Assembly: GCA_016788905.1 (NCBI GenBank)
Contig: JAEURZ010000003.1
Span: 1-39,261 of the forward strand
DNA from: Elusimicrobiota bacterium
Lineage (GTDB): Bacteria > Elusimicrobiota > Elusimicrobia > FEN-1173
DNA: 39,261 nt
Direction: 5' to 3'
The stretch's first letter is position 1, and every line of letters starts with the position of its first letter. Shown here piece after piece: positions 8,361 to 31,341 of this stretch. The notes under the pieces were generated by a model. It did no database searches. It was not told the DNA's origin and saw nothing but the letters and a program-made list of their open reading frames with translations. The position numbers and the translations under genes are program-made.

Positions 8361-9133
8361 ACACGCCCTTCTTTGAAATTAAAGATTTACATGTTTCGGT
8401 GGAGGGTAAGAAAATTCTTCACGGGCTCAATTTACGGGTGGGTGCGGGGGAAATTCACGCCATGATGGGACCGAACGGTTCGGGAAAAAGCACCCTTTCC
8501 TATGCGGTCTTGGGGCACCCGCGGTATAAGATCGAGTCCGGGGATATTCTTCTTAACGGTGAAAGCCTGTTGGCACTTAAAACGAATGAGCGGGCCATCA
8601 AAGGACTTTTCCTCGGGTTCCAGTATCCTGTCTCGGTTCCGGGCGTGAGCGTGGTCAACTTCCTTCGAACGGCCATGAAGAATCGCCGGGGACAAGACAT
8701 TGCGCTTAAGGATTTTCGAAAAGAACTGAAAGAAAACATGAAAATTCTTAAAATGGACACGGCTTTTGCCAACCGCTATCTCAATGAGGGCTTTTCCGGA
8801 GGGGAGAAAAAGCGCTTGGAAATCCTCCAGATGGCGCTCCTGCAACCGGTGATGGCCATTCTGGATGAGACCGATTCGGGGTTAGATATCGATGCCTTGA
8901 AGATTGTGGCGGAGGGCATCAACCGTTTGGCCAACCCCAGCCGAGGAATTTTGTTGATCACCCACTACCAACGATTGCTCGGATACGTCAAACCGCAATT
9001 TGTCCATGTCCTTTCCGCAGGAACCATCGTTCGGTCCGGCGGGGCGGACCTGGCTCTGGAATTGGAAAGCAAAGGATACGAATGGATTACCGGCGCTGTA
9101 CCAGTTGCCGGGGGATCCCTGGTGGCCTCATGA
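8357..9133 (+). CDS. sufC: Fe-S assembly ATPase SufC
   Basis: SufC is the ABC-type ATPase that forms the SufBCD scaffold complex in the cytoplasm and drives the conformational change needed for cluster assembly. At 258 residues it is of normal length. Walker A is G-P-N-G-S-G-K-S-T (~residue 36), the signature is [10 protein letters not shown] (~residue 147) and Walker B is [12 protein letters not shown], all typical of SufC rather than a transporter ATPase. It starts in an ATGA overlap with the regulator and ends in an ATGA overlap with sufB. Confidence 0.97.
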
Positions 9134-11884: not shown

Positions 11885-12191
11885 TTATTTCACGGTGGCC
11901 CGTTTGGATCAGGTCCCTCCGGGGGTCCTTAAAGTTTTTCGCGTGAGGGGACGGCGCATTGCCATGAGTCAAGTGGATGGCGCCTTTTACGCCATCGATG
12001 ATCTCTGCTCCCACGACGAGGGGCCTTTGGGTGAAGGTGTTCTCCATGGGGACGAAGTGGAATGTCCCCGCCACGGGGCGCGCTTCAGTGTTAAAAGCGG
12101 GGCGGCCCTCCGCATGCCTGCGGTGGTCCCGGTGAAATGCCATAAAGTCCGAGTGGACGGACAAAACATTCAAGTTAAATTGGAAGATTAA
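11877..12191 (+). CDS. Rieske-type [2Fe-2S] ferredoxin in the suf operon
   Basis: A 104-residue soluble Rieske protein. Cluster ligands are C44-x-H46 and C63-x-x-H66 (C-S-H and C-P-R-H). There is no membrane anchor or oxygenase domain, so it is a NirD/BphF-like electron-transfer ferredoxin. It overlaps sufD by 8 bases and precedes sufS by a single base, so it is made together with the assembly machine. It may supply electrons for cluster assembly or be the regulated client; this is inferred from position. Similar Rieske genes occur in suf operons of other bacteria. Confidence 0.93.
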   Translation: MGDYFTVARLDQVPPGVLKVFRVRGRRIAMSQVDGAFYAIDDLCSHDEGPLGEGVLHGDEVECPRHGARFSVKSGAALRMPAVVPVKCHKVRVDGQNIQVKLED

Positions 12192-12192
12192 T

Positions 12193-13461: not shown

Positions 13462-13916
13462 CCGATGATCTTTATCGGGAAGTGATCTTAGATCACTACC
13501 GACATCCGCGGAACATGGGAAAAATCCCGACTCCGGATATTTGTGTGAATGGGGTGAATCCTCTTTGCGGGGACGCCATTGAACTGACCTTTCTGGTGCG
13601 GGACGGGCGTATTGACGATATCAAAATGGCGGGCAACGGATGTTCCATTTCCCAGTCGTCGGCGTCGATGATGACGGAGGCGCTGAAAGGGAAAAGTTTA
13701 ACGGATTCGGCCGGTTTGGCGGACGCGTTCAAGAAGATGATGTTGGAGAATGCTCCCGCTGACCAGCTTCCAGAAGATCTGGAAGAGTTGGCCTCGCTCG
13801 AAGGGGTTCGTAAATACCCAGTCCGGATCAAATGCGCTCTGTTGGCGTGGAACACCTTTCTCCAGGGACTCAAGGAATTCGAAGATAAAAAAACGCAGTC
13901 ACCGATTCAAGGATAG
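13458..13916 (+). CDS. sufU: Zinc-dependent sulfurtransferase SufU
   Basis: SufU accepts persulfide sulfur from SufS in suf systems that lack SufE. The open frame reaches upstream into sufS, but the ATG at 13458 overlaps the sufS stop (ATGA) and gives 152 residues. C37 (N-P-L-C-G-D), C62 (G-N-G-C-S-I-S-Q-S-S) and C126 (I-K-C-A-L-L-A-W) are the three conserved cysteines, with D39 as fourth zinc ligand. The 20-residue insertion before C126 distinguishes SufU from IscU. Its presence explains the absence of sufE. Confidence 0.95.
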   Translation: MTDDLYREVILDHYRHPRNMGKIPTPDICVNGVNPLCGDAIELTFLVRDGRIDDIKMAGNGCSISQSSASMMTEALKGKSLTDSAGLADAFKKMMLENAPADQLPEDLEELASLEGVRKYPVRIKCALLAWNTFLQGLKEFEDKKTQSPIQG

Positions 13917-13925
13917 GGGGAAATT

Positions 13926-14318
13926 ATGTCTGTCACGGTTGAACAGGTCAATGGAGTCTTGAAAACGATTTTTGATCCGGAAATCCATTTGAGCATTTGG
14001 GATTTGGGTCTGATTTATGGTGTGGAGGTGACCCCGGATGGAAATGGAAAAGACAAGGTGGCCGTTCGTATGACACTGACGACGCCGGCGTGTCCCTACG
14101 GTCCAGCTTTACTCAGCAAAGTCCACGCCGACCTCGGCGCCATGGCCGGGGTTTCGGATGTGAAAGTGGACCTGGCGTGGATTCCTCCCTGGGACCCGCG
14201 TACCATGGCGTCGGATGAAGCCAAGCTTCAGATGGGTCTTTTTGAGCTGAACGATGACGACGAAGACGAGCCCACGTCAGAGAGTGCGGCCGCTTCCCTT
14301 TCCAAACCTCAAAAGTAA
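13926..14318 (+). CDS. sufT: Fe-S assembly auxiliary protein SufT (MIP18/DUF59 family)
   Basis: A 130-residue MIP18-family protein that assists maturation of Fe-S proteins. D-P-E-I-H-L-S-I-W-D-L-G-L-I-Y near residue 17 and T-L-T-T-P-A-C-P-Y-G with the conserved Cys are diagnostic, followed by V-D-L-A-W-I-P-P-W. The last ~25 residues are acidic (N-D-D-D-E-D-E-P) and beyond the usual domain. An AGGGGG site lies just before the ATG, 9 bases after sufU. It is the last gene of the suf operon. Confidence 0.93.
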   Translation: MSVTVEQVNGVLKTIFDPEIHLSIWDLGLIYGVEVTPDGNGKDKVAVRMTLTTPACPYGPALLSKVHADLGAMAGVSDVKVDLAWIPPWDPRTMASDEAKLQMGLFELNDDDEDEPTSESAAASLSKPQK

Positions 14319-14320
14319 GG

Positions 14321-14326
14321 TATAAT
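14321..14326 (+). promoter_or_regulatory. -10 box of tRNA-Gly promoter
   Basis: A perfect TATAAT lies three bases after the sufT stop and 25 bases before the mature tRNA 5' end. No convincing -35 hexamer is visible 17 bases upstream (only CTTTCC-like sequence inside sufT). The tRNA may thus be transcribed both from here and by read-through from suf. Confidence 0.45.
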
Positions 14327-14351
14327 AGCACCGCAAGAACGAGGAAACTTT

Positions 14352-14427
14352 GCGGGCGTAGTTCAGTTGGTAGAACGTCTCGTTGCCAACGAGAAGGTCG
14401 TCGGTTCGAACCCGATCGCCCGCTCCA
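14352..14427 (+). tRNA. tRNA-Gly (anticodon GCC)
   Basis: The cloverleaf is complete: acceptor GCGGGCG/CGCCCGC, D-arm GTTCAGTTGGTAGAAC, anticodon stem-loop CTCGTTGCCAACGAG (anticodon GCC), T-arm GTCGGTTCGAACCCGAT, discriminator T and an encoded CCA. It is followed by a strong terminator. Unlike this gene, the other two tRNAs of the window lack an encoded CCA. Confidence 0.96.
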
Positions 14428-14437
14428 TCTTCAGGAA

Positions 14438-14470
14438 AAAGACCCCGATTCGACTCGGGGTCTTTTTTTT
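14438..14470 (+). terminator. Intrinsic terminator after tRNA-Gly
   Basis: GACCCCGA (14441-14448) pairs with TCGGGGTC (14455-14462) across a 6-base loop, extended by AAA/TTT, and is followed by a run of eight T. It ends the suf/tRNA-Gly transcript. Confidence 0.92.
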
Positions 14471-14548
14471 GACGCTTTTGTCCCCCATGTTCATTTCTTA
14501 TGGTACAATTCTGACGGTAGGTTGTATTATTTTTGAAAGGAGTTTCAA

Positions 14549-15268
14549 ATGAAGAAAAACATTTTTGTTTCTTTTCTGAGTGTTTTGGTCTTGTCGCTGT
14601 CGGCGTGCGTTTCCTCATCGCGGTTTAAGAAAATGGAAACGGCGAAATTGGAAATTGAAACCCAGGCGGAAGAATTAAGAGCCCAGATTGATGCGTTGTC
14701 TTCCCAAAAAGAAATGCTGAGCCAAGACGTCGAACAATTAACAGCGGAGCAACAGGCCCTTCAACAGGAAGCCGAGAATCGGGAGAAGGGATACAACGAA
14801 CTGGTGAGCCGGCTGTCCTCGGAGGTCAACGAGGGGAAGTTGCAGGTTCGGAAATTCAAAGACATGCTTTCGGTTGATGTGGCGGAAAAGATCTTTTTTG
14901 CTTCGGGAAGCGCCAGCTTAAAGAAAGAGGGTGAAGCTGTTCTTCTTAAAGTGGGGGAAGCTCTGGCGAATTTTTCCGACAAAAACATCCGCGTTGTGGG
15001 GCACACGGACAACGTCCCCGTTTCAAAGCGATCCCCTTTCTCGAGCAATTGGGAGCTTTCCGTTATGAGAGCAACCACGGTGGTGCGGTTTCTTCAAGAG
15101 AAAGCCCACTTGTCCCCGGAAAGCCTCATCGCTTCTGGTCAGGGCGAATATCAACCCATCGCTTCAAACGAGACCGCTGAAGGGCGACAGAAGAATCGGC
15201 GGATCGAAATCATGCTGTTGGACAAATCCCTCGTTGAAGCGATTGAAAAATCCAGCGAGACTCAATAG
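14549..15268 (+). CDS. OmpA-family peptidoglycan-binding lipoprotein
   Basis: A 239-residue outer-membrane lipoprotein. The signal peptide ends in a lipobox L-S-A-C (Cys ~20). A long coiled coil spans about residues 30-95 (E-T-Q-A-E-E-L-R-A-Q-I-D-A-L). The C-terminal OmpA/MotB domain (about 108-232) begins I-F-F-A-S-G-S-A and contains V-V-G-H-T-D-N-V-P-V and the N-R-R-I-E-I end, where the Asp and Arg bind meso-diaminopimelate. It probably ties the outer membrane to the cell wall. GAAAGGAG sits before the ATG. It lies alone between two tRNA genes. Confidence 0.93.
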   Translation: MKKNIFVSFLSVLVLSLSACVSSSRFKKMETAKLEIETQAEELRAQIDALSSQKEMLSQDVEQLTAEQQALQQEAENREKGYNELVSRLSSEVNEGKLQVRKFKDMLSVDVAEKIFFASGSASLKKEGEAVLLKVGEALANFSDKNIRVVGHTDNVPVSKRSPFSSNWELSVMRATTVVRFLQEKAHLSPESLIASGQGEYQPIASNETAEGRQKNRRIEIMLLDKSLVEAIEKSSETQ

Positions 15269-15881: not shown

Positions 15882-16346
15882 ATGGATCCCTTTCTCCTCC
15901 TTCGTCAATCGATTCAGGCCCGCGGGTTGCGGGAGACCTCCCAGCGCGAGGGGGTATTGCGTTTTTTAGCTCAAGCCAAGGGACATTTAACCTTGGAAGA
16001 TATTTATGAAGCTCTTCGTTCCCGTCTTTCAGGGATTGGGCGGGCCACTGTGTTTCGCACCGTGAAGTTGTTGGAAGAGATTGGACTTGTTTCCCGGGTC
16101 ACCTTTGCGGACGGTCAGGCGCGGTACGAATACGCTTATGGGCGAGAACACCATGACCACATGATTTGTGTGGATTGCGGCAAAGCGTTGGAGTTTTCCA
16201 GCCCTGCCATCGAACGGCTTCAAACAGAGGCCGCTCGTGCGCGAGGGTTTGAGCTGCGGTGGCATCGTCACGAAATGTTTGGGCGGTGTTCCGTGTGTTC
16301 CTCCAAACCGGTGCGCCGGTCGGTGGGCGTGGGGGGGAAGGGATGA
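15882..16346 (+). CDS. fur: Ferric uptake regulator Fur
   Basis: A Fur-family metalloregulator, 154 residues. The N-terminal winged helix (T-S-Q-R-E-G-V-L-R-F-L, then G-R-A-T-V-F-R-T-V-K-L-L) is followed by the dimerisation domain with the metal motif H90-H91-D-H93 and two CxxC pairs (C96/C99 and C136/C139) forming the structural zinc site. The ATG at 15882 is preferred; in-frame TTG codons upstream overlap the promoter. It overlaps feoB by ATGA, and a Fur box lies immediately upstream. Fur rather than Zur or PerR is favoured by the feoB linkage; the paralogues cannot be fully separated by motifs alone. Confidence 0.92.
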   Translation: MDPFLLLRQSIQARGLRETSQREGVLRFLAQAKGHLTLEDIYEALRSRLSGIGRATVFRTVKLLEEIGLVSRVTFADGQARYEYAYGREHHDHMICVDCGKALEFSSPAIERLQTEAARARGFELRWHRHEMFGRCSVCSSKPVRRSVGVGGKG

Positions 16347-18310
16347 GCGAGGCGCGTTCCCCCTCCGATCGGAAGACCCTTATCCTGCTGGGAAACCCCA
16401 ATGTGGGGAAATCCGTCCTTTTTGGACGGATCACGGGTAAATACGCAACGGTTTCCAACTATCCGGGGACCACAGTGGAAGTCTCCTCCGGAGTCAGTTG
16501 GCTCGCCGGGGAAGCGTGGCGGGTGGTGGACACCCCTGGGGTGAACTCCCTTTATCCTTCTTCAGAAGACGAAAGGGTCACGCGGGACTTCCTCTTGAAA
16601 GATCGTCCGGAAGTTGTGTTGAACGTTTTGGATTCAAAAAACCTAGCACGCGGATTGATGACCACCTTGGAGTTGGTGGAATTTGGCATTCCATTCGTGG
16701 TGGCTCTGAACCTGGCCGATGAAGCCTTGGACCGGGGGATCGTGGTGGATGCCGCGGCTCTCTCTCGGTGTCTTGGGGTTCCTGTTGTTCAAACGGTGGC
16801 CACCACGGGGGAAGGGATGGCCGATTTAAAACGGGCCGTGGAACGGGCGACGGTGGCCACGGTGTCCGGTTCCGCCACTCCTGAGATACGCCGGTCATTG
16901 GAGATCCTGGACCCCCTCTTCGCCAAGGGCTTTCCGGGAACTCGCGCGGTTCAGTTAGCGCTTTTGGCCGGGGATGACACGGTCCTCACGTGGGTGGGGG
17001 CGGGGAGCGCGCCGGGGATCGGGGAGGACGTTCTCTACAAGGCTGGACAAACGGAACGGTCCCGGTTCGCCCGTCCTCCGCGACAAATCCTATTTGAGGG
17101 TAGGGAGGGGCGGGTCCGAGAAATCTGTGCGGAGGTGGTGACTGTTCGGGGAAAGTTGGCCCCGCGAATTTCTCAACGGTTGGGGGTTTGGGCACTTCGT
17201 CCCTGGCCGGGTTTTTTGATCGCGGGGATCGTTCTTTTTGCCGTCTATCAGTTTGTGGGAGTGTTCGGCGCCGGCACGGCGGTCAACTTCTTAGAAGGAA
17301 CTGTTTTTGGCAAATGGATCACGCCGGGCGCCACGTGGGTGGTGGAAAAAGTTTTGCCGTGGGAATTTTTCCGAGACATCCTGGTGGGGCCGTATGGGGT
17401 GATCCGCATGGCGTTCTCCTACGCTTTTGCCTTGATCCTTCCCATTGTGGCCACCTTTTTCATCGCGTTTGGCCTCTTGGAAGATTCTGGATACTTGCCT
17501 CGTTTGTCGGTCTTGTTGGACCGGGTTTTCCGTCTTATGGGTCTCAATGGCCGAGCGGTGTTGCCCATGATTTTAGGCTTGGGTTGCGACACCATGGCGA
17601 CCATGACAACTCGGATACTGGACACGAAAAAAGAACGGATTATCGTGACGCTTTTGTTGGCCTTAACCGTGCCTTGTTCGGCTCAGTTGGCTGTGATCTT
17701 GGGGATGGCGGCGGGGCTCTCGCCTAAAGTCCTTGGGGTGTGGTTGTTCGTCCTCGTGGGGACGACGTTAGCGACAGGTTGGGCAGCATCGAAAATTCTT
17801 CCTGGGGCGCGTTCCACCTTCCTGATGGAAATTCCACCCATTCGGCGGCCCTTGTTCCGAAACATATGGATGAAAATGCAGGTGCGATTGGCCTGGTATT
17901 TAAAAGAAGTCGTGCCTCTCTTCGTTTATGGGACCTTAGCGTTGTTTTTTATGGACCGGTGGGGTTTGTTGAAAATGGCGGAACGGGGTTTTGCCCCGGT
18001 GGTCCAATCGTGGCTGGGTCTCCCGGCACAAGCGACGGAAGCTTTTTTGATCGGGTTCTTAAGACGGGATTACGGGGCGGCGGGGCTTTACTCTATTCAA
18101 AAGGCGGGGTTCCTTGATTTCCGTCAGGTGACGGTGAGCCTTGTGCTCATTACGTTGTTCATGCCTTGTGTGGCCCAGTGGTTGATGATGTTTAAAGAAC
18201 GGGGATGGAAAGGAGCGCTCACGATTACGGTGGCGGTGTTGGTGGTCGCTTTAGGGATCGCTGGGGTGTTGAACCGATTGCTTCTTTTATTTCCTTTTTT
18301 GGTGAGTTAA
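16343..18310 (+). CDS. feoB: Ferrous iron transporter FeoB
   Basis: An inner-membrane Fe2+ importer of 655 residues. The N-terminal G-domain has G1 G-N-P-N-V-G-K-S (residues 17-24), G2 N-Y-P-G-T-T-V-E, G3 V-D-T-P-G and G4 N-L-A-D. A helical spacer leads to the membrane part, which begins near residue 290 and contains the two Gate motifs, with G-L-G-C-D-T-M-A-T-M-T-T-R and F-L-R-R-D-Y-G-A-A-G. The frame is open upstream inside fur, but the ATG at 16343 overlaps the fur stop. It is shorter than E. coli FeoB, as in many bacteria. Expected to be Fur-repressed as part of the fur operon. Confidence 0.97.
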   Translation: MSEARSPSDRKTLILLGNPNVGKSVLFGRITGKYATVSNYPGTTVEVSSGVSWLAGEAWRVVDTPGVNSLYPSSEDERVTRDFLLKDRPEVVLNVLDSKNLARGLMTTLELVEFGIPFVVALNLADEALDRGIVVDAAALSRCLGVPVVQTVATTGEGMADLKRAVERATVATVSGSATPEIRRSLEILDPLFAKGFPGTRAVQLALLAGDDTVLTWVGAGSAPGIGEDVLYKAGQTERSRFARPPRQILFEGREGRVREICAEVVTVRGKLAPRISQRLGVWALRPWPGFLIAGIVLFAVYQFVGVFGAGTAVNFLEGTVFGKWITPGATWVVEKVLPWEFFRDILVGPYGVIRMAFSYAFALILPIVATFFIAFGLLEDSGYLPRLSVLLDRVFRLMGLNGRAVLPMILGLGCDTMATMTTRILDTKKERIIVTLLLALTVPCSAQLAVILGMAAGLSPKVLGVWLFVLVGTTLATGWAASKILPGARSTFLMEIPPIRRPLFRNIWMKMQVRLAWYLKEVVPLFVYGTLALFFMDRWGLLKMAERGFAPVVQSWLGLPAQATEAFLIGFLRRDYGAAGLYSIQKAGFLDFRQVTVSLVLITLFMPCVAQWLMMFKERGWKGALTITVAVLVVALGIAGVLNRLLLLFPFLVS

Positions 18311-18334
18311 AAAAGTGCGAAGGAAGGATTTCTG

Positions 18335-19033
18335 ATGACCGAAAGACAAAAGTTTCCTATCCCCTCCGCTGAACGGGAGGACGTGGAGGAGGCGTTGGGC
18401 CTCTTATGGTATCAGCGGGAGTTGGGGGTGACGGATGGGGCGACTTTGCGTGGGGCTCTTCACGCGGCGGGGAGTCCCGAAGGGTTTGATCGTCTGGTTC
18501 GGCACGGGTTTGTTCGGGAAGAATCCGATCACGTGCTCTTGACTTCTTCTGGAGATGAATTGGCGCGGGACGTGACACGCCGATTGCGGTTGGCCGAGAG
18601 GCTTTTAACGGATGTTCTCAGTCTTGACCGGAGCGCCGTGGACCCCAATGCGTGTGTGTTGGAACACACCATTTCTCCCGAGGTCACCGAATCCATTTGC
18701 ACCCTCTTGGGGCATCCCGTGGAATGTCCTCACGGTCACACGATCCCTCCAGGGGAGTGTTGTGGGCGCAAGGACGGGCGCCTCTCGCCCATTGTGGTCC
18801 CTCTTTCCCGATTGGCGGTAGGAGAATCGGGCCGGGTGGCTTATTTGCAATTGAAAGATCATCCGGAACTTCACCGTCTCCTCGCCTTGGGGGTCATTCC
18901 GGGCGCTCCGGTTCACCTGCACCAAACCTTTCCCGCCTTTGTGGTGGAAGTGGGGGAGAGTCAATTGGCGTTGGAGTCCTCTATCGCCGCCCGGATTTTT
19001 GTTCGGCGTGCGGAAGAATCGAAAATTTCATAG
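18335..19033 (+). CDS. DtxR/IdeR-type regulator with C-terminal FeoA-like domain
   Basis: A 232-residue protein 24 bases after feoB, with a GAAGGAAGGA site before its ATG. The N-terminal ~80 residues can form a winged helix. The middle carries the DtxR metal and dimer motif C107-V-L-E110-H111 followed by S-P-E-V-T-E, then P-H-G-H-T-I-P-P-G, the counterpart of the DtxR P-F-G-N-P-I-P-G turn. A Cys pair (E-C-C-G) follows. The last ~75 residues are an SH3-like FeoA domain (L-A-V-G-E-S-G-R-V-A and L-L-A-L-G-V-I-P-G-A). It may be an iron-dependent repressor, supply FeoA function for FeoB, or both. No separate feoA is present. The divergent N-terminus makes DNA binding less certain. Confidence 0.82.
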   Translation: MTERQKFPIPSAEREDVEEALGLLWYQRELGVTDGATLRGALHAAGSPEGFDRLVRHGFVREESDHVLLTSSGDELARDVTRRLRLAERLLTDVLSLDRSAVDPNACVLEHTISPEVTESICTLLGHPVECPHGHTIPPGECCGRKDGRLSPIVVPLSRLAVGESGRVAYLQLKDHPELHRLLALGVIPGAPVHLHQTFPAFVVEVGESQLALESSIAARIFVRRAEESKIS

Positions 19034-19857: not shown

Positions 19858-20783
19858 CGCCCACGGCGACCCTCTGGGTTATTTTTTTTGTGGCCCTGGT
19901 CGCGATGTTGTATGTGGACTTGTTTCAATCCCGTTCGGAAAAAGCCATCACGCTTCGGGAAGCGGCGTTGCGTTCCATGGAATGGATTTTAGCCGCCCTC
20001 CTCTACTGTGGGGCCATCTATTGGTTGTTGTCTCCCGCCAAAGCCGCCGAATTTCTGACCGGGTACCTGATCGAAAAATCTTTAAGCGTTGATAATCTGT
20101 TCATTTTTATCATGATCTTTTCCTATTTCAATGTGGATCCTTCCCATCAACCCCGTGTTCTGAAATGGGGGATTTTAGGCGCTGTGGTGATGCGGTTTGT
20201 TTTAATTTTCCTAGGGACGATCCTGGTCAGTCGATTTCAGTGGGTTTTCCTGTTGTTCGGCGCCATCTTATTGTATTCCGCCTACAAAATGGCGTTCAGC
20301 GTGGAAAAAGAATTTAACCCCAATGACAATTTTTTGTTTCGGGGATTGCGAAAAATTCTTCCCATGACGGGAATGCACGGGAACCGTTTTCTGGCGACCA
20401 TTGATGGGCGGTGGCACGCGACCCCCTTGTTCCTGACCGTGGCGGTGGTTGAGTTCAGTGATCTGGTGTTTGCACTTGACTCTATTCCCGCCATCTTTTC
20501 AATTACGACCGATCCCCTCATTGTTTTTACGTCAAATATCTTTGCCATCCTGGGGCTACGGGCCCTGTATTTCTTGGTTAGTGGTCTGGTTCAAATCTTT
20601 ACGTATCTAAAATTCGGGGTCGCGCTCATATTGGCGTTTGTGGGCGTTAAAATGTTAATCATGCACTGGGTCCATATTTCCACATCTGTTTCACTGGGAG
20701 TGGTGATCGGAGTCCTGGCGGTTTCCATCGTTTTTTCGATCTTTCTCCGGCCAAAGGAAAAGGCAACGGAGGAGTCACACTAA
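19854..20783 (+). CDS. TerC-family integral membrane protein
   Basis: A 309-residue multi-pass inner-membrane protein. The GTG at 19854 overlaps the exonuclease stop (GTGA) and yields the expected N-terminus, T-L-W-V-I-F-F-V-A-L. An ATG at 19791 in the same frame would add 21 residues and a 67-base overlap. About eight to nine hydrophobic helices are visible. The TerC hallmarks are E-K-S-L-S-V-D-N-L-F-I-F in the third helix and F-S-D-L-V-F-A-L-D-S-I-P-A-I in the sixth, whose acidic residues are thought to bind metal. Members relate to tellurite resistance and Mn2+ efflux for exported metalloproteins. Substrate not predictable here. Confidence 0.93.
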   Translation: MTPTATLWVIFFVALVAMLYVDLFQSRSEKAITLREAALRSMEWILAALLYCGAIYWLLSPAKAAEFLTGYLIEKSLSVDNLFIFIMIFSYFNVDPSHQPRVLKWGILGAVVMRFVLIFLGTILVSRFQWVFLLFGAILLYSAYKMAFSVEKEFNPNDNFLFRGLRKILPMTGMHGNRFLATIDGRWHATPLFLTVAVVEFSDLVFALDSIPAIFSITTDPLIVFTSNIFAILGLRALYFLVSGLVQIFTYLKFGVALILAFVGVKMLIMHWVHISTSVSLGVVIGVLAVSIVFSIFLRPKEKATEESH

Positions 20784-20871
20784 GTTTCTCCGCCGCGTTA
20801 TCTTGTCCCCCGATTGAGACGTGTATTAGGCTGTTTGCTTGCGAAAGCTGATCAACGAAGACAGGGTTCGG
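20775..20871. repeat. 97-bp direct repeat, copy 1 (other copy 21594-21690)
   Basis: This segment aligns without gaps to 21594-21690, with about 83 of 97 bases identical by eye. It overlaps the last codons and stop of the TerC gene. In copy 2 the right half is the 3' end of the ThiF-nitroreductase gene. The similarity continues past the stop into the 3' flank, so a whole gene end was duplicated, not just a coding motif. Confidence 0.85.
20826..20871 (-). pseudogene. Relic 3' end of a second ThiF-nitroreductase gene
   Basis: On the - strand this piece encodes R-T-L-S-S-L-I-S-F-R-K-Q-T-A and a stop. The corresponding end of the intact gene is R-A-L-S-S-L-L-S-F-R-K-K-T-A and a stop. Reading frame and stop are conserved, but nothing similar is seen further upstream, where the prepilin gene now lies. 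It looks like the remnant of a paralogue. Confidence 0.7.
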
Positions 20872-20983: not shown

Positions 20984-21451
20984 CTACCAGGTACTCCAGA
21001 CCCGGCCTGAAGCGTCGGGGTGGGTGCAGTTGACAACTAAATAAGCGAAAGTGTGGGGTATTAACGCCCCTCCGTCGCAGATGTAAGAAAAACCATAGTT
21101 GTTAAAGACAGCATTGGGGTCTGAGACAGTATAGTACAAACAATCACTGTTGTTGATGTTTGGATGCCAATAGGGGATATTTCCCGTTGGAATTTTCTCG
21201 ATATATTTGGGGACGAGGGGGGAAGACCCCCCCATCATTGGCCATTGGCATAATTGCAGATTATCAGCATAATAGATTGACAGCGCTGATCGGAGACTCC
21301 CGAGAATCGCCTTTAAGGCAGCCTCTTTGGCTTTGCGGATCATATTTCCGAACTTAGGGATGGCGATGGAGGCCAGAAGCCCGATAATGGCCGCCACGAG
21401 GATCAGTTCTATGAGGGTAAAACCTCCGCCCTTACGTAAGTCTATTTTCAT
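20984..21451 (-). CDS. Type IV prepilin-like protein
   Basis: A 155-residue prepilin. The short basic leader ends at G10, followed by F11-T-L-I-E15-L, the PilD cleavage site with its Glu at +5, and the hydrophobic helix to about residue 32. The globular part has Cys residues suggesting a disulfide loop (N-S-D-C ... Y-I-C-D). It fits a pilE/GspG-type pseudopilin with N-terminal methylation. GGAG precedes the ATG by 10 bases. The gene stands alone between the relic and the ThiF gene, with no assembly genes nearby, so it would use a machine encoded elsewhere. Confidence 0.92.
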   Translation of the reverse strand: MKIDLRKGGGFTLIELILVAAIIGLLASIAIPKFGNMIRKAKEAALKAILGSLRSALSIYYADNLQLCQWPMMGGSSPLVPKYIEKIPTGNIPYWHPNINNSDCLYYTVSDPNAVFNNYGFSYICDGGALIPHTFAYLVVNCTHPDASGRVWSTW

Positions 21452-21505: not shown

Positions 21506-21593
21506 TGGGCAGAATCATCTCATCATCAATGCTCGTCTGCGTTTCCCCAATGCGCGTTATCAAAAAGCGAACGGTCGTCAAAAAATGTTTGAT

Positions 21594-21690
21594 TCACACT
21601 AAGTTTCTCGGCCAGGTTATTTTTTCCCCCGCTTGAGACGTGTGTTAGGCGGTTTTCTTTCTAAAGCTGAGCAACGAAGATAGGGCTCGG
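21594..21690. repeat. 97-bp direct repeat, copy 2
   Basis: Counterpart of 20775-20871. Its right part (21645-21690) is the coding 3' end of the ThiF-nitroreductase gene on the - strand, and its left part is that gene's 3' flank. The two copies bracket the prepilin gene. Confidence 0.85.
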
Positions 21691-23723
21691 CGTGGGGCTC
21701 GGCTGGAGACAGGGGAGCGGGGACGGCCCATTCGGAACAGGCAAGCGATGGTTTGGGACTGGAGAGCACCCATGATCTCGTGTATCTCTTTATCTTCCCG
21801 TTCGAATCGTTCTCGTTCCTGGATGGTCAATCCCTCTCCCTCGTATTCTTTGCATCGGTGAGCCATCAGCGAATGGCCCATGACGGGTTGAAGGGTCCAT
21901 CCTTCCGCCGTGAGATTGAGCCACACTCTTTGCCAAAGGCCTCCCACGCGGACATAGGTCATGGGTTCGGTGTTGGGAATGGTGAACGCGCCAAAGGCGG
22001 CGGATTGCCTGTAGATGTGTCGGGCCCGTATAGCGGCCAGTCGAGTTACCCCCATGGTTTTCATTGACCGAGCGATACTCCACTGGGCGAGAAGACGAAG
22101 ACTTAAGCCGTCCACAGGGGTAAGCCCCAGGGTGGATATGGGCATTCCATCTGAGAATGTTTGGGCTTCTTTTTTTGACCATCTCATCCAGTGGAATAAA
22201 TAGCTGTGCAGGGCTTTGTGTCCAAGTAAGAAGGATTCGAACCGGCTGTTGATCCGAGCCAGGGTTTTGATCTGTTCCGTATCGTCCATAAGGTGAAACT
22301 GGATTCCCCAAGGATTGTTTGACTGATTCTTGATTTTTTCAATGAACCGATCGGACATCCGGTCCTTGCCAAACGGCCGACGGTCAACACACCGTGAACG
22401 AATAGCCGCGGCCAATGAAGAATGTCGAACCAGACCTGGTTCAAAAGTCATCTGGGCGACTGAAGGTTTTCGCGCTTCTGTGGTCCAACGTGGAACCCAT
22501 CCCCACTGTTCGGCAGCGATCTCGATATTCGTGAGACACATGCCCAGGGCCATTTGGCTTGCGACGTTTCCCACATTAATAAAGGCTTGGCTCCGGTTTA
22601 CTTCCTCGTTAACAAACAAGGTTTTTCCATCCCATTCAAATGAAAAGGGTTGAACGTTGTCCCCGGAGGGCGCCCAACGGGCACTGTCCACCATAGCGGT
22701 GACCTGGGCAACGTTGGGTTGGCCTGGTTGGTGGGGAGGGGGCGCTGAGGTTCCCTCATCGATTTTCACCTGTTCTATCGGTGAGGAAGGGGGCTCTGAA
22801 ACTGTTTTTTTACTTAGCATCCAGCGGAAAATAGTGGCTTTGAGTCTTTGCCCCCAACCGCGGTTGCCCCAACGCAATTTTCCCTCAACCAATTTCCCTT
22901 TATAAGCGTCGAATTGGTGGTAATGGGGCGCGGAAGAAATAGGACCCCGTTTGAGGATCAGTTTTAGCACCTCCGCCGCGGCAACGCCGGCACACAATTG
23001 GACCGCCAGGGCCATGGAGGGACCACGATGTTCTTCTAGGTTCACATAGGTCCTGTCCAAGTAAGACATTTGTGTGGCTTGGGGGGTTAAGCCCAAAGCG
23101 AAGAGAAGGAATTTGTCGGTTTTTCCCCGGGCCAAGTCAAAGGCGAAATAGTCTCGCCAGGACATGCTGCCCGGCCGAAAGACGAGCCACGCGACGCTCA
23201 TTCCAATGGGACCCGCGGTAACAAGGGGAATCCCCCGCCGTTCGGCTTCGTCAAAAAGGAGTTCCCGAGCTTCAACGGCAAAAAAATCCAAGCCGTCCAC
23301 GATGACATCGACCCCGTCAAGGAAAGCCGCCACATTTCCCCGTTGAACACCCTTCTCAAACCGTTGGAGTTTGACTGTGGGGTTGATGTCCAGGAGTTGT
23401 TCCGCCATGACATCCACTTTGGATCGCCCCAGGCTTGAAACAGTGGCCCCGGCCTGGCGGTTGAAGTTTTGGACTTCGAACGAATCGAAATCAGCGATAT
23501 GGAACCCGCCAACGCCTAGGCGAGCGAGGGTCGTCAGATGGACCCCTCCGACCCCCCCCAACCCCGCGATGGCGACGACGCTCCGTTTTAATTGAAGTTG
23601 TTCGTCTGGCTGGACCAAACCCAAATTCCGGGAAAATGCCTTGGGATAGTCAAAGGGTTCCTTGGATTCATCGGTTTTTCCTTGTTCCTGGTAAGAAGTG
23701 GAAACGCGGTCAATGGTTTGCAT
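21645..23723 (-). CDS. ThiF/E1-like adenylyltransferase fused to a nitroreductase domain
   Basis: A 692-residue two-domain protein. The ATG at 23723 has AAGGAG 7 bases upstream; an in-frame GTG at 23747 lies too close to the exporter stop. Residues ~24-300 are an E1/ThiF/MoeB fold: nucleotide loop A-G54-L-G-G-V-G-G, D-F-D-S-F-E, N-F-N-R-Q (arginine finger) and G-L-D-F-F. The zinc CxxC pairs and a catalytic thioester Cys are missing. Residues ~335-640 look like an FMN nitroreductase (S-A-R-W-A-P-S-G-D-N-V-Q-P-F). The same layout is known from mycobacterial Rv1355c (MoeY). The chemistry is unknown: adenylation of a carboxylate plus a flavin redox step recalls azole-forming RiPP enzymes. It follows the RND exporter in the same transcript. 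Confidence 0.85.
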   Translation of the reverse strand: MQTIDRVSTSYQEQGKTDESKEPFDYPKAFSRNLGLVQPDEQLQLKRSVVAIAGLGGVGGVHLTTLARLGVGGFHIADFDSFEVQNFNRQAGATVSSLGRSKVDVMAEQLLDINPTVKLQRFEKGVQRGNVAAFLDGVDVIVDGLDFFAVEARELLFDEAERRGIPLVTAGPIGMSVAWLVFRPGSMSWRDYFAFDLARGKTDKFLLFALGLTPQATQMSYLDRTYVNLEEHRGPSMALAVQLCAGVAAAEVLKLILKRGPISSAPHYHQFDAYKGKLVEGKLRWGNRGWGQRLKATIFRWMLSKKTVSEPPSSPIEQVKIDEGTSAPPPHQPGQPNVAQVTAMVDSARWAPSGDNVQPFSFEWDGKTLFVNEEVNRSQAFINVGNVASQMALGMCLTNIEIAAEQWGWVPRWTTEARKPSVAQMTFEPGLVRHSSLAAAIRSRCVDRRPFGKDRMSDRFIEKIKNQSNNPWGIQFHLMDDTEQIKTLARINSRFESFLLGHKALHSYLFHWMRWSKKEAQTFSDGMPISTLGLTPVDGLSLRLLAQWSIARSMKTMGVTRLAAIRARHIYRQSAAFGAFTIPNTEPMTYVRVGGLWQRVWLNLTAEGWTLQPVMGHSLMAHRCKEYEGEGLTIQERERFEREDKEIHEIMGALQSQTIACLFRMGRPRSPVSSRAPRRALSSLLSFRKKTA

Positions 23724-23751
23724 GGGTGATCTCCTTTTAATATCCACGACG

Positions 23752-26280
23752 TCAGTTTACCGGGTCCAGGTGTTTGGGCTGTGTTTCTTGTGTGATTTCT
23801 CGGTGATTTTTTAGCGAAATGTCTTTAGGAATATCCTCTGAGTATGATTTTGATACAGTTTCGCGGAAGACCGTTGGTTCTTTGCCTCGGGTTTGGCGGG
23901 AAGAGTTATCCCCTGTTTGATCGCCATTCTTTCTAAAGCCAAGGGCAAAGATTGATTTCAAGAGAAAATGATCCCCCACAAGTCCGACCAATAAAATAAC
24001 GACGTTCAGTAAACCGAAGAAAAAAATGGGACTGAAATGGGAAAACATCAATACGCCGAAGGCAATAGAGATGATCGAAAAGGAAGAGAGAGAAGCCTCT
24101 CCCTTTTGGTTGGTCACCTCTTCCAGAGCCCTGGCAGAGGGCAGGCCTTCCTCCTGCGCTCCCCGGTAGGCACAAAAAAAGTGAATGGTGTCGTCCACCA
24201 GGATCCCAAAGGCTGATGCCGCGATGAGAGCTGTTCCAGAGTCAAGGGGAATCCCTGCCCAACCCATAATGCCGAAGTTAATGATGATGGGGAAAAGATT
24301 GGGAACCAGAAACAGAAGGGCCAGCCGCCAGGATTGCAATACCAAAGCCATGAGAAGAAATATGCCCATCACGGTTTGTGTGATGTTGACGACTTGGTCG
24401 CTCACCAGGACGGCATTCGTGGCGGTGTCGAGTTTGGTCCTCCCCGTTATTTGAGATGTAATTCCAGGGAGGCTGTTGTTTTTTAATATAGTTTCAATAT
24501 CTTTGATCAACAAAGCGGCTTGGGAAGATCCAGGGACGTTTGCTCGAACGATTAGTCGCGTATGGTCAAACCCCGGAGTGACGTAATCCCCAAGATCGTT
24601 GCGGCCGTAAAGGAGGAGGTATTGTTCCAATAAAAATCGTGAGGAAGGGAGAACGTAGGTAGAAGGATCTTCCTCATGGAACGCTTTGTTCATTTCTTTA
24701 AAGAGATCCGTCACTCCCGTACAGACGTCCACCGCTGGGAGGGCTTTGATTTGTTTTTGAATGCGCTCAATCTGAATCAAAATGTCCGGGTTTTTGAACG
24801 TTCCTGTTTGGTCCGCTTGAAAAGATACGTCCAAGGCATCCGTGCCTGAAAGATGGTTTCGGATGTACAAGATGTCTTGGTGAACCACGGAAGATTTTTT
24901 AAACCATTCGATGAGATTGGTTTCGACTTTCAAATGGCGAGAATTCATGGCCCCCCAGCCGACAGCCAAGAGGCATAGCGATATCACCCACAGGGGTCGA
25001 CGTGTGGCCACATGATGAAACCAATGAATCAAACGGGGGATTTCTCTTTTGGTTTGGGTGACGGGGTCCCGATAAATCGTGTCGGGTCGGAAGTAGGTCA
25101 ATAAGGGGGCCACGATACCAAAGGCCACGAGAAATTCGAATATCATCCCGGCGGAAGCCAACCAACCGAAACTTCGAATCGCGGGAACACGATTGAACGT
25201 AAAAGAAAAGAACCCGATCGCTGTGGTGAGGCTGGTTAAAAAGCAGGGGAACAATAGTTTATTGAGGATTTGCATCATGGCGTTGCGGGGGGAAGAGTTG
25301 TGGGACAAAAGACGGCGGTCGAGACTTGAATATATGTGGATGATGTCGGAAAGGGCAAGGCAAACCACCAAGGGGATGACGGCTACGGACGCATTATTAA
25401 GAGGGATGTTGGTTAAACCAGCCAGGCCCAGGGTCGCCCCTAAGGTTGTCAGTATTCCCATTCCCGCTAAGACCAATAAACGAATGTTTCGAAATAAAAA
25501 ATAAATCGCACCGATTGCGAGAATAACGCTCACAGGGAAAAAAATCTTCACATCGAAATTCATGTAATGGGCAAGGTAGTAGTCTGTGGTCGGTCGACCG
25601 GCGTAATAAAACTGATAACCGAGCTCTTGGTAGGGTTTTAAGATTTGTTGGACATTTTGAATCAGGGGCTTCTGGGACGTTTGTTCTGAAATTGAATTTG
25701 TTTTATGAACGTAAACAATTATGGCTGTCGTTCGTCCGTCATCCGATAGGAGGTTCTTCTGGTAAAGTGGATTTGTCAGGGCGCGGTTTCGGAGCTGGCT
25801 AAGACGAGTCTGGTCGACGGGGACTTCAATTAAGAAGGCATCAGATTCAAAACTGTCTTCAGTGCCTTTCATGTCTGTTACGTTGGCCAAGCTGACAACA
25901 TCCTCCACTCCGTCCAGTGTGCGGATTTCTTCGGTAAGGGTTTTAAGTTCATTTAACCGGTTTGATGTGAAAAGGTCGTCTCGTGTATAGGCGATGACAA
26001 AAAAATCGTTTTTCGGGAAGCTTTCTTTAAACCGTTCGTGGAATTCAACCGCAACATCTTTGTCTAAAACAAATTGGTCGGCGCTTGTGCTGAATGTCAA
26101 TTGGGGAAGAAAAGAGGTGAAAAACGCAACGAGAAGGATCGCCGCGACCAAAATCCATCCTGTTTTTCTCATGAGGAGGTGGGCCATGAAAAGGGATGCA
26201 CGCCGTTGGAAGGAAAAATGTCGATCCGCCGCGAATCCTGTACTTTTCTCTGGAGTTTCCTGATTGTTGACCGTCACCAT
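23752..26280 (-). CDS. RND/MMPL-family exporter
   Basis: An 842-residue inner-membrane transporter. The ATG at 26280 is preceded by GAGGAGG. A first helix (~41-60) leads to a large periplasmic loop, then five to six helices including N-N-A-S-V-A-V-I-P-L-V-V and S-D-I-I-H-I-Y. A second half repeats the plan: helix, loop, then a membrane block with F-G-I-L-V-D-D-T-I-H-F-F. The Asp residues in the paired D-x-I-H motifs are typical proton-relay positions. The pattern fits MMPL/HAE3 exporters of lipids, hopanoids or polyketides rather than drug pumps, since no membrane-fusion or TolC gene is present. The ~80-residue C-terminal tail is polar. With the ThiF-nitroreductase gene 28 bases behind, it may export that enzyme's product. 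Confidence 0.9.
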   Translation of the reverse strand: MVTVNNQETPEKSTGFAADRHFSFQRRASLFMAHLLMRKTGWILVAAILLVAFFTSFLPQLTFSTSADQFVLDKDVAVEFHERFKESFPKNDFFVIAYTRDDLFTSNRLNELKTLTEEIRTLDGVEDVVSLANVTDMKGTEDSFESDAFLIEVPVDQTRLSQLRNRALTNPLYQKNLLSDDGRTTAIIVYVHKTNSISEQTSQKPLIQNVQQILKPYQELGYQFYYAGRPTTDYYLAHYMNFDVKIFFPVSVILAIGAIYFLFRNIRLLVLAGMGILTTLGATLGLAGLTNIPLNNASVAVIPLVVCLALSDIIHIYSSLDRRLLSHNSSPRNAMMQILNKLLFPCFLTSLTTAIGFFSFTFNRVPAIRSFGWLASAGMIFEFLVAFGIVAPLLTYFRPDTIYRDPVTQTKREIPRLIHWFHHVATRRPLWVISLCLLAVGWGAMNSRHLKVETNLIEWFKKSSVVHQDILYIRNHLSGTDALDVSFQADQTGTFKNPDILIQIERIQKQIKALPAVDVCTGVTDLFKEMNKAFHEEDPSTYVLPSSRFLLEQYLLLYGRNDLGDYVTPGFDHTRLIVRANVPGSSQAALLIKDIETILKNNSLPGITSQITGRTKLDTATNAVLVSDQVVNITQTVMGIFLLMALVLQSWRLALLFLVPNLFPIIINFGIMGWAGIPLDSGTALIAASAFGILVDDTIHFFCAYRGAQEEGLPSARALEEVTNQKGEASLSSFSIISIAFGVLMFSHFSPIFFFGLLNVVILLVGLVGDHFLLKSIFALGFRKNGDQTGDNSSRQTRGKEPTVFRETVSKSYSEDIPKDISLKNHREITQETQPKHLDPVN

Positions 26281-26417: not shown

Positions 26418-26575
26418 CAGAGGGCGGATATCTTTTCAATCAGAACGGATGTTTCATCTGTAAATTGATGCCCTCGGCGGGAATTTATTTCCAAGTGTCT
26501 CGTCGTGGGTAGAAAGGGGAGGACCCTTACGAAACGTTTATGGAACTCGAGCGCGAACGAAGGCGGTGGGGTTTA

Positions 26576-28447
26576 ATGAGGCCGGGTTCTTTACTTCTTG
26601 TTGTTCTGGCTACGATATTTAGTCCTTGCCTAGCTCTTACAGAATCCTTTGGGTTTCAAGACGCGGATGTCGTTATCGCCGCGCCGGAGCGGGTGGTTAC
26701 CTCGATGGATATGGTGGCGGACGGAGATTTTGATGGGGATGGGTTTAGCGACGTGGCTGTGTTTCAGCAATTTCTATTTACTCTGAGCGTTGATCTTATC
26801 TTTGGCGGGGATCTTCCCACCACCAATTCTTTGAGTGCCTTGCGCCGGATGGTCCTCATTCCTCCGGATGCCCTGCCAGGACACAGTGTCCTGGGGACAG
26901 TGTTTTTTGCTGACCTCAATGGGGATCACAGGGACGATCTGGTTCTTCCCTTGTACTACAGCCGCAGCAAAACCCCAAAAATCTTTGTTGTTTTTGGGAC
27001 CACGAATCCGGCTTCCCTAATTAATCTGAATTTAACTTCAGCCGATCTCGAGATTAATATGACTTCGTTTTCAGCTCCGCTCTCCCTTGGGCGAGGGGAT
27101 TTTAACGGAGACCATATTCAAGATCTTCTTGTGGGAGATGGCCCTCACAATGTGGTTTATCTCCTCTATGGGAAGGAAATATTTCCCGACCAAACTTTCA
27201 CTCTGGACGATGGCGTATCCGCTCTCCGATTTCAAAAGGCAAGTGGAAATTTTGGTCAACACGTGGTGGGGGGGGATGTCGATGGGGATAGCGTGTCCGA
27301 TCTCATTATCTCAGCTCCTGAGGAATCAGGGGGAGCGACCAACGCTGGAGCGGTCTATGTTCTTTATGGGAAAAGCGACCTCCCCCTATTGACAGATATG
27401 GATGTTCGCCCGGCCAACGTTAAAATCACGGGACCGTCACTCGGTAAACTTATGTGTCGATCTTCAGGCGATACCAATGGCGATGGCTTTGATGAACTGG
27501 TCGTTCAGGAAGTGACTTTAGAAGGCAAAAAGATATCGATCCTTGATGGGTATTCTTTGGCCAATGGGCCTCCGACCCTTGCGATGAACGGGGGATTCCC
27601 TGGGACTCCTCCCGTTGTGTTTTCTCTTCCCGCCCCCTGGTGGGTGGATGGAATCGTATCCCCCATCGGGGACTTTGATGGAGACGGGAAAGGCGATGTC
27701 TTTCCCATGGATTCATCCCACGTGAGAGGTTTACTCTCTACAGGGTTTGTTGGGCCCAGCACTTCTTGGACGGAATCTTTTCGTTTCTTCCTTCCGAATC
27801 GGGTGTCGGTAGGGGATTTTAATGGGGACAATAAAAAAGACCTGGTGGTAGGGGCCCTTAATGGAAACACCTGGGCATTAGCTGTTTTGAAGGGGTACCG
27901 TCCATTGGAAAATCCGTCTATTTTGGTCAGCCCCCGCACGCCCGATCAAGTGGTTGTTCAGTTGACTCTTACTGTGGATGGGGAGCCAGCGGAAATGAAG
28001 TTAACGGGGGATTTATTAGTTCCCATCCCTGGCATTTGGATTCCCTACCAGTCAAAAATGGATGTGACGTTAACGCCATCTGTTGGGAACAAATCCATTA
28101 CGGCTGTGTTTCGAACACGGGAAGGACGGGAGAGCGAATCCCTATCGATTTCAATTCCATTAATCCTAGGTGAAAAGCGGGTTTCTTTTACCACTAATTT
28201 ATTAAAAGCAGGAGGGCGGGCTCAGTGGGAGGTTCATTTGGATTCGGCCGGGCATTTAAAAGCGTCGGTCTATTCCCGCGAAGGGAGGTTGCTCTGCGTC
28301 ATTATAGATGAGGCTAAACCACAAGGGGTTTATGCCTTTGAATGGGACGGAACCAATAGCGAGGGCCAACGGGTGGCTCCGGGAATCTACACAATTGTCT
28401 TTGACGTGGGTGGGCGCATCGACCGTGCCCGTGTTTTGGTGAAGTAA
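26576..28447 (+). CDS. Secreted FG-GAP repeat protein, FlgD-Ig-like C-terminus (unit 1)
   Basis: A secreted protein of 623 residues from the ATG at 26576, which gives a clean signal peptide (R-P-G-S-L-L-L-V-V-L-A) and has a GGTGGGG stretch upstream; an in-frame ATG at 26540 would add a charged 12-residue extension. At least seven Ca2+-binding loops of the FG-GAP/VCBS type follow, for example G-D-F-D-G-D-G-F-S-D-V, G-D-F-N-G-D-H-I-Q-D-L and G-D-F-D-G-D-G-K-G-D-V, forming an integrin-like beta-propeller. The last ~80 residues are a FlgD/Ig-like module (D-G-T-N-S-E-G-Q-R-V-A-P-G-I-Y) ending in A-R-V-L-V-K. It is probably a surface adhesin. The paralogue at 29442-31341 has almost the same 3' end. 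TAATG couples it to the decayed PorV-like gene. Confidence 0.88.
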   Translation: MRPGSLLLVVLATIFSPCLALTESFGFQDADVVIAAPERVVTSMDMVADGDFDGDGFSDVAVFQQFLFTLSVDLIFGGDLPTTNSLSALRRMVLIPPDALPGHSVLGTVFFADLNGDHRDDLVLPLYYSRSKTPKIFVVFGTTNPASLINLNLTSADLEINMTSFSAPLSLGRGDFNGDHIQDLLVGDGPHNVVYLLYGKEIFPDQTFTLDDGVSALRFQKASGNFGQHVVGGDVDGDSVSDLIISAPEESGGATNAGAVYVLYGKSDLPLLTDMDVRPANVKITGPSLGKLMCRSSGDTNGDGFDELVVQEVTLEGKKISILDGYSLANGPPTLAMNGGFPGTPPVVFSLPAPWWVDGIVSPIGDFDGDGKGDVFPMDSSHVRGLLSTGFVGPSTSWTESFRFFLPNRVSVGDFNGDNKKDLVVGALNGNTWALAVLKGYRPLENPSILVSPRTPDQVVVQLTLTVDGEPAEMKLTGDLLVPIPGIWIPYQSKMDVTLTPSVGNKSITAVFRTREGRESESLSISIPLILGEKRVSFTTNLLKAGGRAQWEVHLDSAGHLKASVYSREGRLLCVIIDEAKPQGVYAFEWDGTNSEGQRVAPGIYTIVFDVGGRIDRARVLVK

Positions 28448-29441: not shown

Positions 29442-31341
29442 ATGATGACCAGAATGCACCTTTTTCTTTGGGTTGGTCTCTCTCTAACGTGGATGGGGAA
29501 TTCCCCTGTTTGGGGTAAATCCTTTGGGATCGCCGATCTGGATGTTCTCGTTACAGCCCCCATGGGATATTCCAACCGTTCTAAACTATCCGCCGAAGGG
29601 GATTTTAATGGCGACGGGTATGATGACGTGGCCGTTCTCATGGATTCTAACGAGGTGGGTGGTCCACAGGGACCACAAAATATTCAATTGATTTTGGGGA
29701 GGGCAGACTTTCCAGAAAAATCCAATATTGAAAGTTTGGTCAATATGAAAATATACTTACCGAGTACAGTGGTTTCGAATGGACACCTGTTTTTCGCGGA
29801 TATTAATGGAGATGGAAAGGATGATCTTTTCTACTATGGTTTTAGAAATTTTGGCTCTAAAATATATGGGGTATTTGGAACGACCATACCCCCGGTTTCC
29901 TTGTCTTGGGGTCCGGATCAGGCGGATCTTGAACTGACAGTCAATTACAACGTTCAGGACAGGTCGATCATGGTGAAACCAGGAGATTTTAATGGGGACG
30001 GGAGAGACGATTTATTGGTGGGAATGACCAATGACTCGGGGGGGGGATGTCTATCTTGTTCTTGGTCAATCGGTATTCACGAGTTCCTCATTCGCGGTGA
30101 ACAGCGCAAATTCGGCACTTTGGGTTCATAGTAACGGCGATGGATATTTTGGCAAAACCATAGCCATTGGGGATGTTGATGGAGACGGGAAATCGGACAT
30201 GGTTCTTTCGTCCCCTCTCCGAACACGTCTGGGAGGGGTTCAGAGTGGGGAGATTTATATTATCCGTGGGTCCACACATTATATCACCCCGTGGAATCTC
30301 GATTCCACTCCAGCGGATATAACCATCATGGGAGGGAATGAGGGGGGGTATTTTCATTGCCCCGCGGTGGGGGATTTTAATGGAGACGGAAAAAGTGATT
30401 TGGTCGTTATTGATTATGAGGAACAAAAGGGATTCCTTTTGGATGGTTCTGTTTTGTCCAATGGCTTGAGTAGCATCGATATGCAAACAGGGATACCCGG
30501 TTATTCGCCGCCCATGTTCGGGGGGCTTCCTCCCTTGTCGCTCTCGGGTATGTCGATTGTTACAGGCGATTTTGATGGGAATGGAAAGGCGGATCTATTC
30601 CCAACGATTAATGAGGAGGTAAGGGGGGTCCTTTTATCCAATGTTTTTGGATCCCCGATCGTCCCTCCCGCGTCTTTTGGATTTTCGGTTCCTTTTGATG
30701 CGAGTCTTGGGGATGTGAATGGTGATGGTAAACAAGATTTAGTGGTATTACCGCTAGGGGGTCCCAACGGAAGTGTCGGCATCATTTTCGGGTATCATCC
30801 CTTGGATAACCCGACGATACAAGTGAGGGGGAACCCGTTCTTACCAAAAGCCGTCCTTGACCTCCGTGTGGAAGGGGATCCTACCGAAATGAAGTTAAGC
30901 GGGGATATTTTGGTACCCCCTCCTGACATTTGGATTCCCTATCGGTTAAAAATTGATGCCACGTTAACGCCATCGGTTGGAGACAAAACAATTACGGTTG
31001 TGTTTCGAACAAAGGAGGGACGAGAGAGTGATACCCTTTCATTATCAATTCCATTGGCATTAGGGGAGGTGGGGGTATCCTCGATCACCAATCTATTAAA
31101 AGAAGGGGGGCGGGCCCAATGGGGGGCTCATCTGGGTTTGGTGGGGCATTTAAAAGCGTCGGTCTACTCCCGTGAGGGGCGATTGCTCCGCGTTCTTATC
31201 GATGAGGAGAAAGAGCCAGGGGTATATGTCCTTGAATGGGACGGAACCAATAGCGAGGGCCAACGGGTGGCTCCGGGAATCTACACGATTGTTTTTGACG
31301 TAGGTGGGCGCATCGACCGTGCCCGTGTTTTGGTGAAGTAA
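29442..31341 (+). pseudogene. FG-GAP repeat surface protein (unit 2), broken by a G9 tract
   Basis: A paralogue of the first FG-GAP protein, with signal peptide M-H-L-F-L-W-V-G-L-S-L, FG-GAP loops (G-D-F-N-G-D-G-Y-D-D-V, A-D-I-N-G-D-G-K-D-D-L, G-D-V-D-G-D-G-K-S-D-M and others) and the same FlgD/Ig-like end. The first part is in frame to ~30037; the rest continues in the next frame from ~30031. The switch falls in nine consecutive G (30038-30046); eight would restore one frame of about 630 codons. This may be a real mutation, a phase-variable tract or a sequencing error. It ends with TAATG onto the intact PorV-like gene. Confidence 0.82.

Follow-up and report, generated by a model that had tools for sequence, protein, structure and literature searches.

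In our study we analysed a stretch of 39,261 nucleotides from an Elusimicrobiota bacterium (the window) and found an MMPL/RND transporter gene, P0002, which is closely followed by a gene for a ThiF-nitroreductase fusion protein, P0001. The two genes with their spacing and domains are confirmed as observed, far beyond chance. P0001 is predicted to be an oxazolone synthetase like OxzB and TrzS, with both domains fused in one chain, and with a probability of about 0.62 we propose that it acts together with an unlinked FeeM-type acyltransferase, that the co-transcribed P0002 exports the product and that LolA-like and DUF1302 proteins participate in a hand-over. The kind of enzyme is already known and only the association with an exporter is apparently undescribed. 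An earlier note on this DNA, which had called the whole system possibly undescribed, is therefore upheld on this point for the exporter part alone. This association is relevant to the fate of oxazolone lipids. Moreover, it names concrete transporter genes, which makes export of acyl-oxazolones directly testable, and it hints at the kind of substrate handled by one clade of HAE3 transporters, a family that is largely uncharacterised.

Operon structure and domains of the fusion protein

The transporter gene is located first on the minus strand (23752..26280, 842 aa; assigned by its open reading frame, Pfam/NCBIfam profiles and the MMPL tree) and is preceded by the ribosome site GGAGG (26290-26286, minus strand). 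Downstream of it, the fusion gene (21645..23723, minus strand, 692 aa) starts with an ATG at 23723, exactly 28 nt from the transporter stop, and ends with its stop at 21645. The intergenic gap contains the strong ribosome site AAGGAG (23731..23736, minus strand). Coordinates, strand, lengths, gap and ribosome site all agree with the earlier note, whose proposal of an operon for biosynthesis plus export is supported by our results. A scan of the minus strand 3' of the fusion gene revealed no terminator, folding was no better than that of shuffled sequences, and promoter-like sites were not more common than in shuffled sequence.

Several other features were observed in the window. A 100-nt direct repeat (20772-20871 and 21591-21690, 85% identical), is present in just two copies genome-wide, which cover the 3' ends of the TerC and P0001 genes and flank a single type IV pilin-like gene (20984-21451, minus strand). 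At 16259-19033, a FeoB gene precedes the gene of a DtxR-type repressor that has a FeoA domain of its own. Two overlapping FG-GAP-repeat reading frames in different frames (29442-31341) resemble the intact 635-aa FG-GAP protein encoded at 26540-28447 and may represent a single gene broken by a frameshift.

P0001 was assigned by its domains, its fold and its homology to PRK14851/Rv1355c (TrzS). The E1/ThiF adenylating (cyclase) domain comprises residues about 22-309 (22797..23660, minus strand) and matches the ThiF profile (1e-44) as well as PRK08223 (3e-118, 394 bits at a cut-off of 266, residues 22-309). The FMN nitroreductase (flavin-dependent oxidase) domain comprises residues about 338-685 (21669..22712, minus strand) and matches the Acg-family nitroreductase/FMN oxidoreductase profile (1.5e-30). 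PRK14851 covers both domains (3e-144, residues 20-680), the PRK14852 family was matched too, and NCBIfam PRK07877, the 'Rv1355c family', was hit with 2.5e-65 and 221 bits, which is under its family cut-off of 476 bits. In an alignment with E. coli MoeB all eight adenylation residues of MoeB/ThiF that were checked are kept: R14, G38, G41, G43, D62, R73, K86 and D130 of MoeB correspond to R32, G54, G57, G59, D78, R89, K102 and D146 of P0001. None of the zinc cysteines is kept (172/175/244/247 in MoeB; G185, S188, Q292 and K295 in P0001), and the catalytic C187, the thioester cysteine, is replaced by G200. The adenylating part is hence devoid of zinc and thioester cysteines, as the earlier note had described. 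Sulfur transfer in molybdopterin or thiamin synthesis, i.e. sulfur-carrier activation as by MoeB and ThiF, was rejected for P0001 since the zinc and catalytic cysteines are missing.

An AlphaFold2 model built from 30 aligned proteins reached a mean pLDDT of 88.5, and its linker at 307-320 is weak. It was used for a fold search in the PDB. The first half matched the ThiF/MoeB fold (TMt about 0.83), and the second half matched the Mycobacterium smegmatis Acg homologue 2YMV (TMt 0.79), so that the FMN nitroreductase fold on which the earlier reading had been made to depend is present. AclA was found as a structural neighbour of the E1 domain; in the open-licence PMC literature nothing relevant on AclA was found. 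Within the flavin domain APSGDN, R444, R448, R599, Q612-P613 and R664 rank with the best-conserved positions across 82 homologues. D146, the conserved arginines and Q612 are candidate counterparts of TrzS D217/R540/Q651, judged by position and conservation.

The earlier note had regarded such fusions as proteins of no settled function, which is outdated given the biochemistry of TrzS, OxzB and TyzB/TyzC. OxzB was reportedly first described by de Rond and colleagues in 2021. Rv1355c is TrzS, the tryptazolone synthase of mycobacteria, whose ThiF domain catalyses the ATP-dependent cyclisation of N-acyl-tryptophan and whose flavin domain carries out an O2-dependent desaturation to the N-acyl tryptazolone, an oxazolone (PMC12856293). 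Tyrazolones are made by TyzB/TyzC of M. tuberculosis (PMC10404671) and, as described in the same paper, also by OxzB of Pseudoalteromonas rubra. The substrate of these synthetases is an N-acyl amino acid provided by a FeeM/AHL-synthase-like acyltransferase (PMC12856293, PMC10404671). All three activities are tied together in one chain in a natural FeeM-ThiF-nitroreductase triple fusion of 989 aa in Nitratidesulfovibrio vulgaris DP4 (DVUL_RS15680), which is encoded on plasmid NC_008741.1 (L227, 11062-14031) among PEP-CTERM/XrtA exosortase genes.

Association of the exporter clade with synthetase loci

P0002 matched the MMPL profile with 3e-24 (Pfam/NCBIfam). Its best transporter model was TIGR00921 HAE3 (1.6e-46), with 158.7 bits under the curated cut-off of 351.9. 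We searched for MMPL genes within about 10 kb in 80 named E1 loci and in same-class relatives; they occur in a minority of the E1 loci sampled and are absent from most. Adjoining or overlapping MMPL genes were found, among others, in Candidatus Desulfofervidaceae (L093), Omnitrophota (L112), Desulfovibrionales (L122), a proteobacterial MAG (L111) and Ectothiorhodospira (L108). We built a maximum-likelihood tree of 31 MMPLs, in which P0002 and two paralogs from its own genome group with the MMPLs of L102 and L122 (support 100/100), and this group then joins those of L093, L112 and the same-class G090 (support 93/96). All five clade members outside the window genome, which belong to several phyla, are located at E1 loci, and the clade contains none of the 16 unlinked MMPLs taken from these and related genomes. 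Several gammaproteobacterial MMPLs from E1 loci are placed outside of it, which points to other origins of the linkage there. Neither of the two paralogs in the window genome lies beside E1 genes. The gene of the nearest one (53%; L145, 8305-17035, contig C23) directly follows, on the same strand, one whose 2116-aa product shows no convincing domain.

The linked set for the locus survey and the tree was derived from E1 neighbourhoods, therefore the reverse test is more independent. With P0002 as query, we searched 199 genomes from the class to which the Desulfovibrionales relative belongs and inspected the surroundings of 20 matches up to 18 kb. Among relatives with 38-41% identity, 9 of 13 are located beside a ThiF-nitroreductase fusion on the same strand, eight of them within 90 nt and one at 1.2 kb, compared with 0 of 7 MMPLs with 24-29% identity (Fisher p 0.004, which overstates the evidence as the genomes are mutually related). 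Gaps of -26 to 90 nt between MMPL and fusion recur. One of the four unlinked close relatives is cut off by the end of its contig, two are additional copies in genomes that also have a linked one, and the fourth is accompanied by LolA, barrel and FeeM genes with no fusion. Accordingly, fusion homologues next to exporters, which the earlier note had named as decisive, were found in the neighbourhood surveys as well as in the reverse test, and the recurring linkage is a direct observation.

The usual order of the cluster is LolA-like, DUF1302 barrel, FeeM, FeeM, MMPL and ThiF-nitroreductase, and DUF1302 and LolA genes are part of the same cassette in the Desulfovibrionales, Omnitrophota and G090 relatives. 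In the Desulfovibrionales relative's class (L205-L217), a largely anaerobic group, ThiF-nitroreductase clusters are frequent, although O2 is required in the flavin step as characterised. In Sterolibacterium MAGs (L060 and L062, 8943-10846), which are among the window's nearest relatives by E1, the E1 gene and a LolA-like gene overlap by 4 nt; no nitroreductase or MMPL gene was found there within 10 kb of E1.

Unlinked components in the window genome

Neither a FeeM/OxzA-type acyltransferase nor a DUF1302 barrel or LolA/DUF1329 gene was found at the window locus. An adjacent acyltransferase gene is usual in such clusters, but the synthetase does not need this adjacency for its activity. The genome encodes one FeeM-type acyltransferase, on contig C25. 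It scores above the cut-off of TIGR03694, an exosortase-associated acyltransferase rather than a characterised N-acyl-amino-acid synthase, and in a tree of 84 sequences its nearest relatives adjoin the fusions of L122 and L102. An exosortase/PEP-CTERM partnership was considered because of this match and rejected, since a search of the genome revealed no exosortase. The only LolA-like gene of the genome is adjacent to a DUF1302 barrel gene on contig C6 and groups with LolAs from E1 loci, apart from five LolAs near distant MMPLs (support 87-89). All parts of the Desulfovibrionales cluster are therefore encoded in the window genome, with adjacency limited to MMPL and fusion.

A paralogous synthetase locus with split genes is present on contig C7 (L040, G000:C7:88000-103050; 8983-14941). 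It comprises a stand-alone E1, which is about 70% identical to the E1 domain of P0001, a stand-alone nitroreductase, a degenerate-nitroreductase/nitroreductase protein (649 aa) and a degenerate-nitroreductase/methyltransferase protein (611 aa), and may make a second product whose synthesis includes methylation. In both the E1 and the nitroreductase tree P0001 groups with these split genes, apart from other fusions. Judged by these trees, the fusion in the window genome probably is a separate event, or C7 is a split descendant. The C7 locus adjoins sucCD and multihaem cytochrome genes; cytochrome oxidase subunit III is also encoded in the genome.

Proposed pathway and alternative explanations

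We propose that the acyltransferase on C25 would N-acylate an amino acid, probably an aromatic one, and that the E1 domain of P0001 would adenylate the carboxylate of this N-acyl amino acid with ATP. The amide oxygen would then close the oxazolone ring with loss of AMP, and the FMN nitroreductase domain would desaturate the cyclised product. The HAE3-like pump P0002, presumably co-transcribed, would extract this lipid-like compound from the inner membrane, from where the LolA-like carrier and the DUF1302 outer-membrane barrel, here encoded on C6, may take it across the envelope. Domains, catalytic residues, folds, the spacing of the two genes and the recurring linkage are observed directly. 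We infer the acyl amino acid substrate, the three reactions and the product; the product appears to be an N-acyl-amino-acid oxazolone or its open form. Outward transport by P0002 and cooperation of the unlinked parts, with a hand-over to the LolA-like and DUF1302 proteins, are likewise predicted. Several points weigh against the pathway, namely an acyltransferase that is absent from the locus and of the TIGR03694 type, the lack of an MMPL gene within 10 kb of most of the 80 named E1 loci together with two unlinked paralogs in the own genome, and the mycobacterial oxazolones, which remain largely cell-associated (PMC12856293, PMC10404671). A further tension arises from the O2 requirement of the studied flavin step, as many of the cluster-bearing bacteria are anaerobes, the Desulfovibrionales mostly so.

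The main rival to this pathway is an open-chain end product, i.e. a dehydro-N-acyl amino acid, perhaps methylated, of the same type as stieleriacine, kyonggic acid or thalassotalic acid, so that the oxazolone would be a transient that hydrolyses and the pump would export the acid. The producers of these acids carry ThiF and nitroreductase genes with no oxazolone observed (PMC12479983), and mycobacterial supernatants contain acyl-tryptophan intermediates and not oxazolones (PMC12856293). However, the ring is readily lost during extraction (PMC12856293), therefore a missing oxazolone elsewhere says little, and OxzB, TyzBC and TrzS do form oxazolones. Methylation would fit the O-methyltransferase genes that lie between nitroreductase and E1 in L061, L063 and L064, the closest relatives by E1, and the methyltransferase domain in the own C7 locus, whereas the window operon contains no methyltransferase. 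Taken together, we regard an open-chain acid as unlikely, while giving it more weight than any other alternative.

It is less probable still that P0002 has a general, hopanoid-like role in lipid or membrane transport and is paired with the fusion incidentally here. Its weak matches to HpnN (hopanoid) models, the three MMPL paralogs of which two lie away from E1 genes and the many sampled E1 loci devoid of MMPL would be explained, but such a transporter would not be expected to track oxazolone loci across several phyla, as the P0002 clade does in agreement with the reverse test, nor to recur at such short gaps. The earlier note had framed P0001 by azole-forming RiPP pathways, in which the enzyme pair would modify a ribosomal peptide. 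Related folds are indeed so used, as in McbB/McbC, and the fold search returned PaaA and MccB as structural neighbours of P0001. Nevertheless, the closest families are PRK08223, PRK14851 and Rv1355c, in which the members characterised so far use N-acyl amino acids as substrates, and no precursor peptide or YcaO/cyclodehydratase was present among the Pfam/NCBIfam-annotated neighbours. Since FeeM-type acyltransferases and not precursor peptides recur as partner, up to the triple fusion, a RiPP was rejected as main explanation and is very improbable. From the earlier reading the operon, the domains and the exporter link are thus retained, the peptide framing and the lack of a settled function are not.

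An oxazolone synthetase with an export partner remains our preferred reading. More tentatively, the HAE3-like MMPL, the LolA-like carrier and the DUF1302 barrel could form a conserved and specific trans-envelope partner of N-acyl oxazolone synthetases in several phyla, which is possible yet falls short of even odds. If true, oxazolone lipids would be secreted, signal- or defence-like compounds rather than internal ones. Their role and fate have been stated as open (PMC12856293, PMC10404671).

Comparison with known systems

TrzS has the same architecture as P0001, with an N-terminal ThiF and a C-terminal FMN nitroreductase (FDO) domain. In mycobacteria the acyltransferase gene trzA is adjacent, whereas it is unlinked in the window genome, and no MMPL partner is described for trzAS (PMC12856293), whereas P0001 has one. 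OxzB of P. rubra is also a ThiF-nitroreductase fusion that makes N-acyl oxazolones, but its acyltransferase gene oxzA is adjacent, as described in PMC10404671. P0001 groups with the split genes of its own genome, therefore it probably arose separately from OxzB. A parallel to the exporter pairing is found in M. tuberculosis, where mmpL9 adjoins the ThiF and FDO genes tyzB and tyzC, which are separate genes unlike P0001; this was called intriguing and a possible transport was suggested (PMC10404671). In the open-licence PMC papers searched, this remark was the only mention found of an exporter alongside these enzymes. The stieleriacine, kyonggic acid and thalassotalic acid clusters combine an N-acyl amino acid synthase with ThiF and nitroreductase, and with a methyltransferase in Stieleria (PMC12479983). 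In contrast, ThiF and nitroreductase are fused in the window and have an MMPL gene as partner; neither 'transporter' nor 'RND' appears as a word in that paper (PMC12479983). For the proposed machine, the monoterpene efflux system AmeABCD of Castellaniella defragrans is similar, as it comprises an HAE3 pump, a DUF1302 protein of the outer membrane, a LolA-superfamily periplasmic protein and AmeC (COG4447) (PMC6394551). It acts on monoterpenes, and in our case the barrel and LolA genes are located on another contig. By analogy, AmeABCD may nevertheless be taken as a precedent for such a set of parts acting on hydrophobic compounds.
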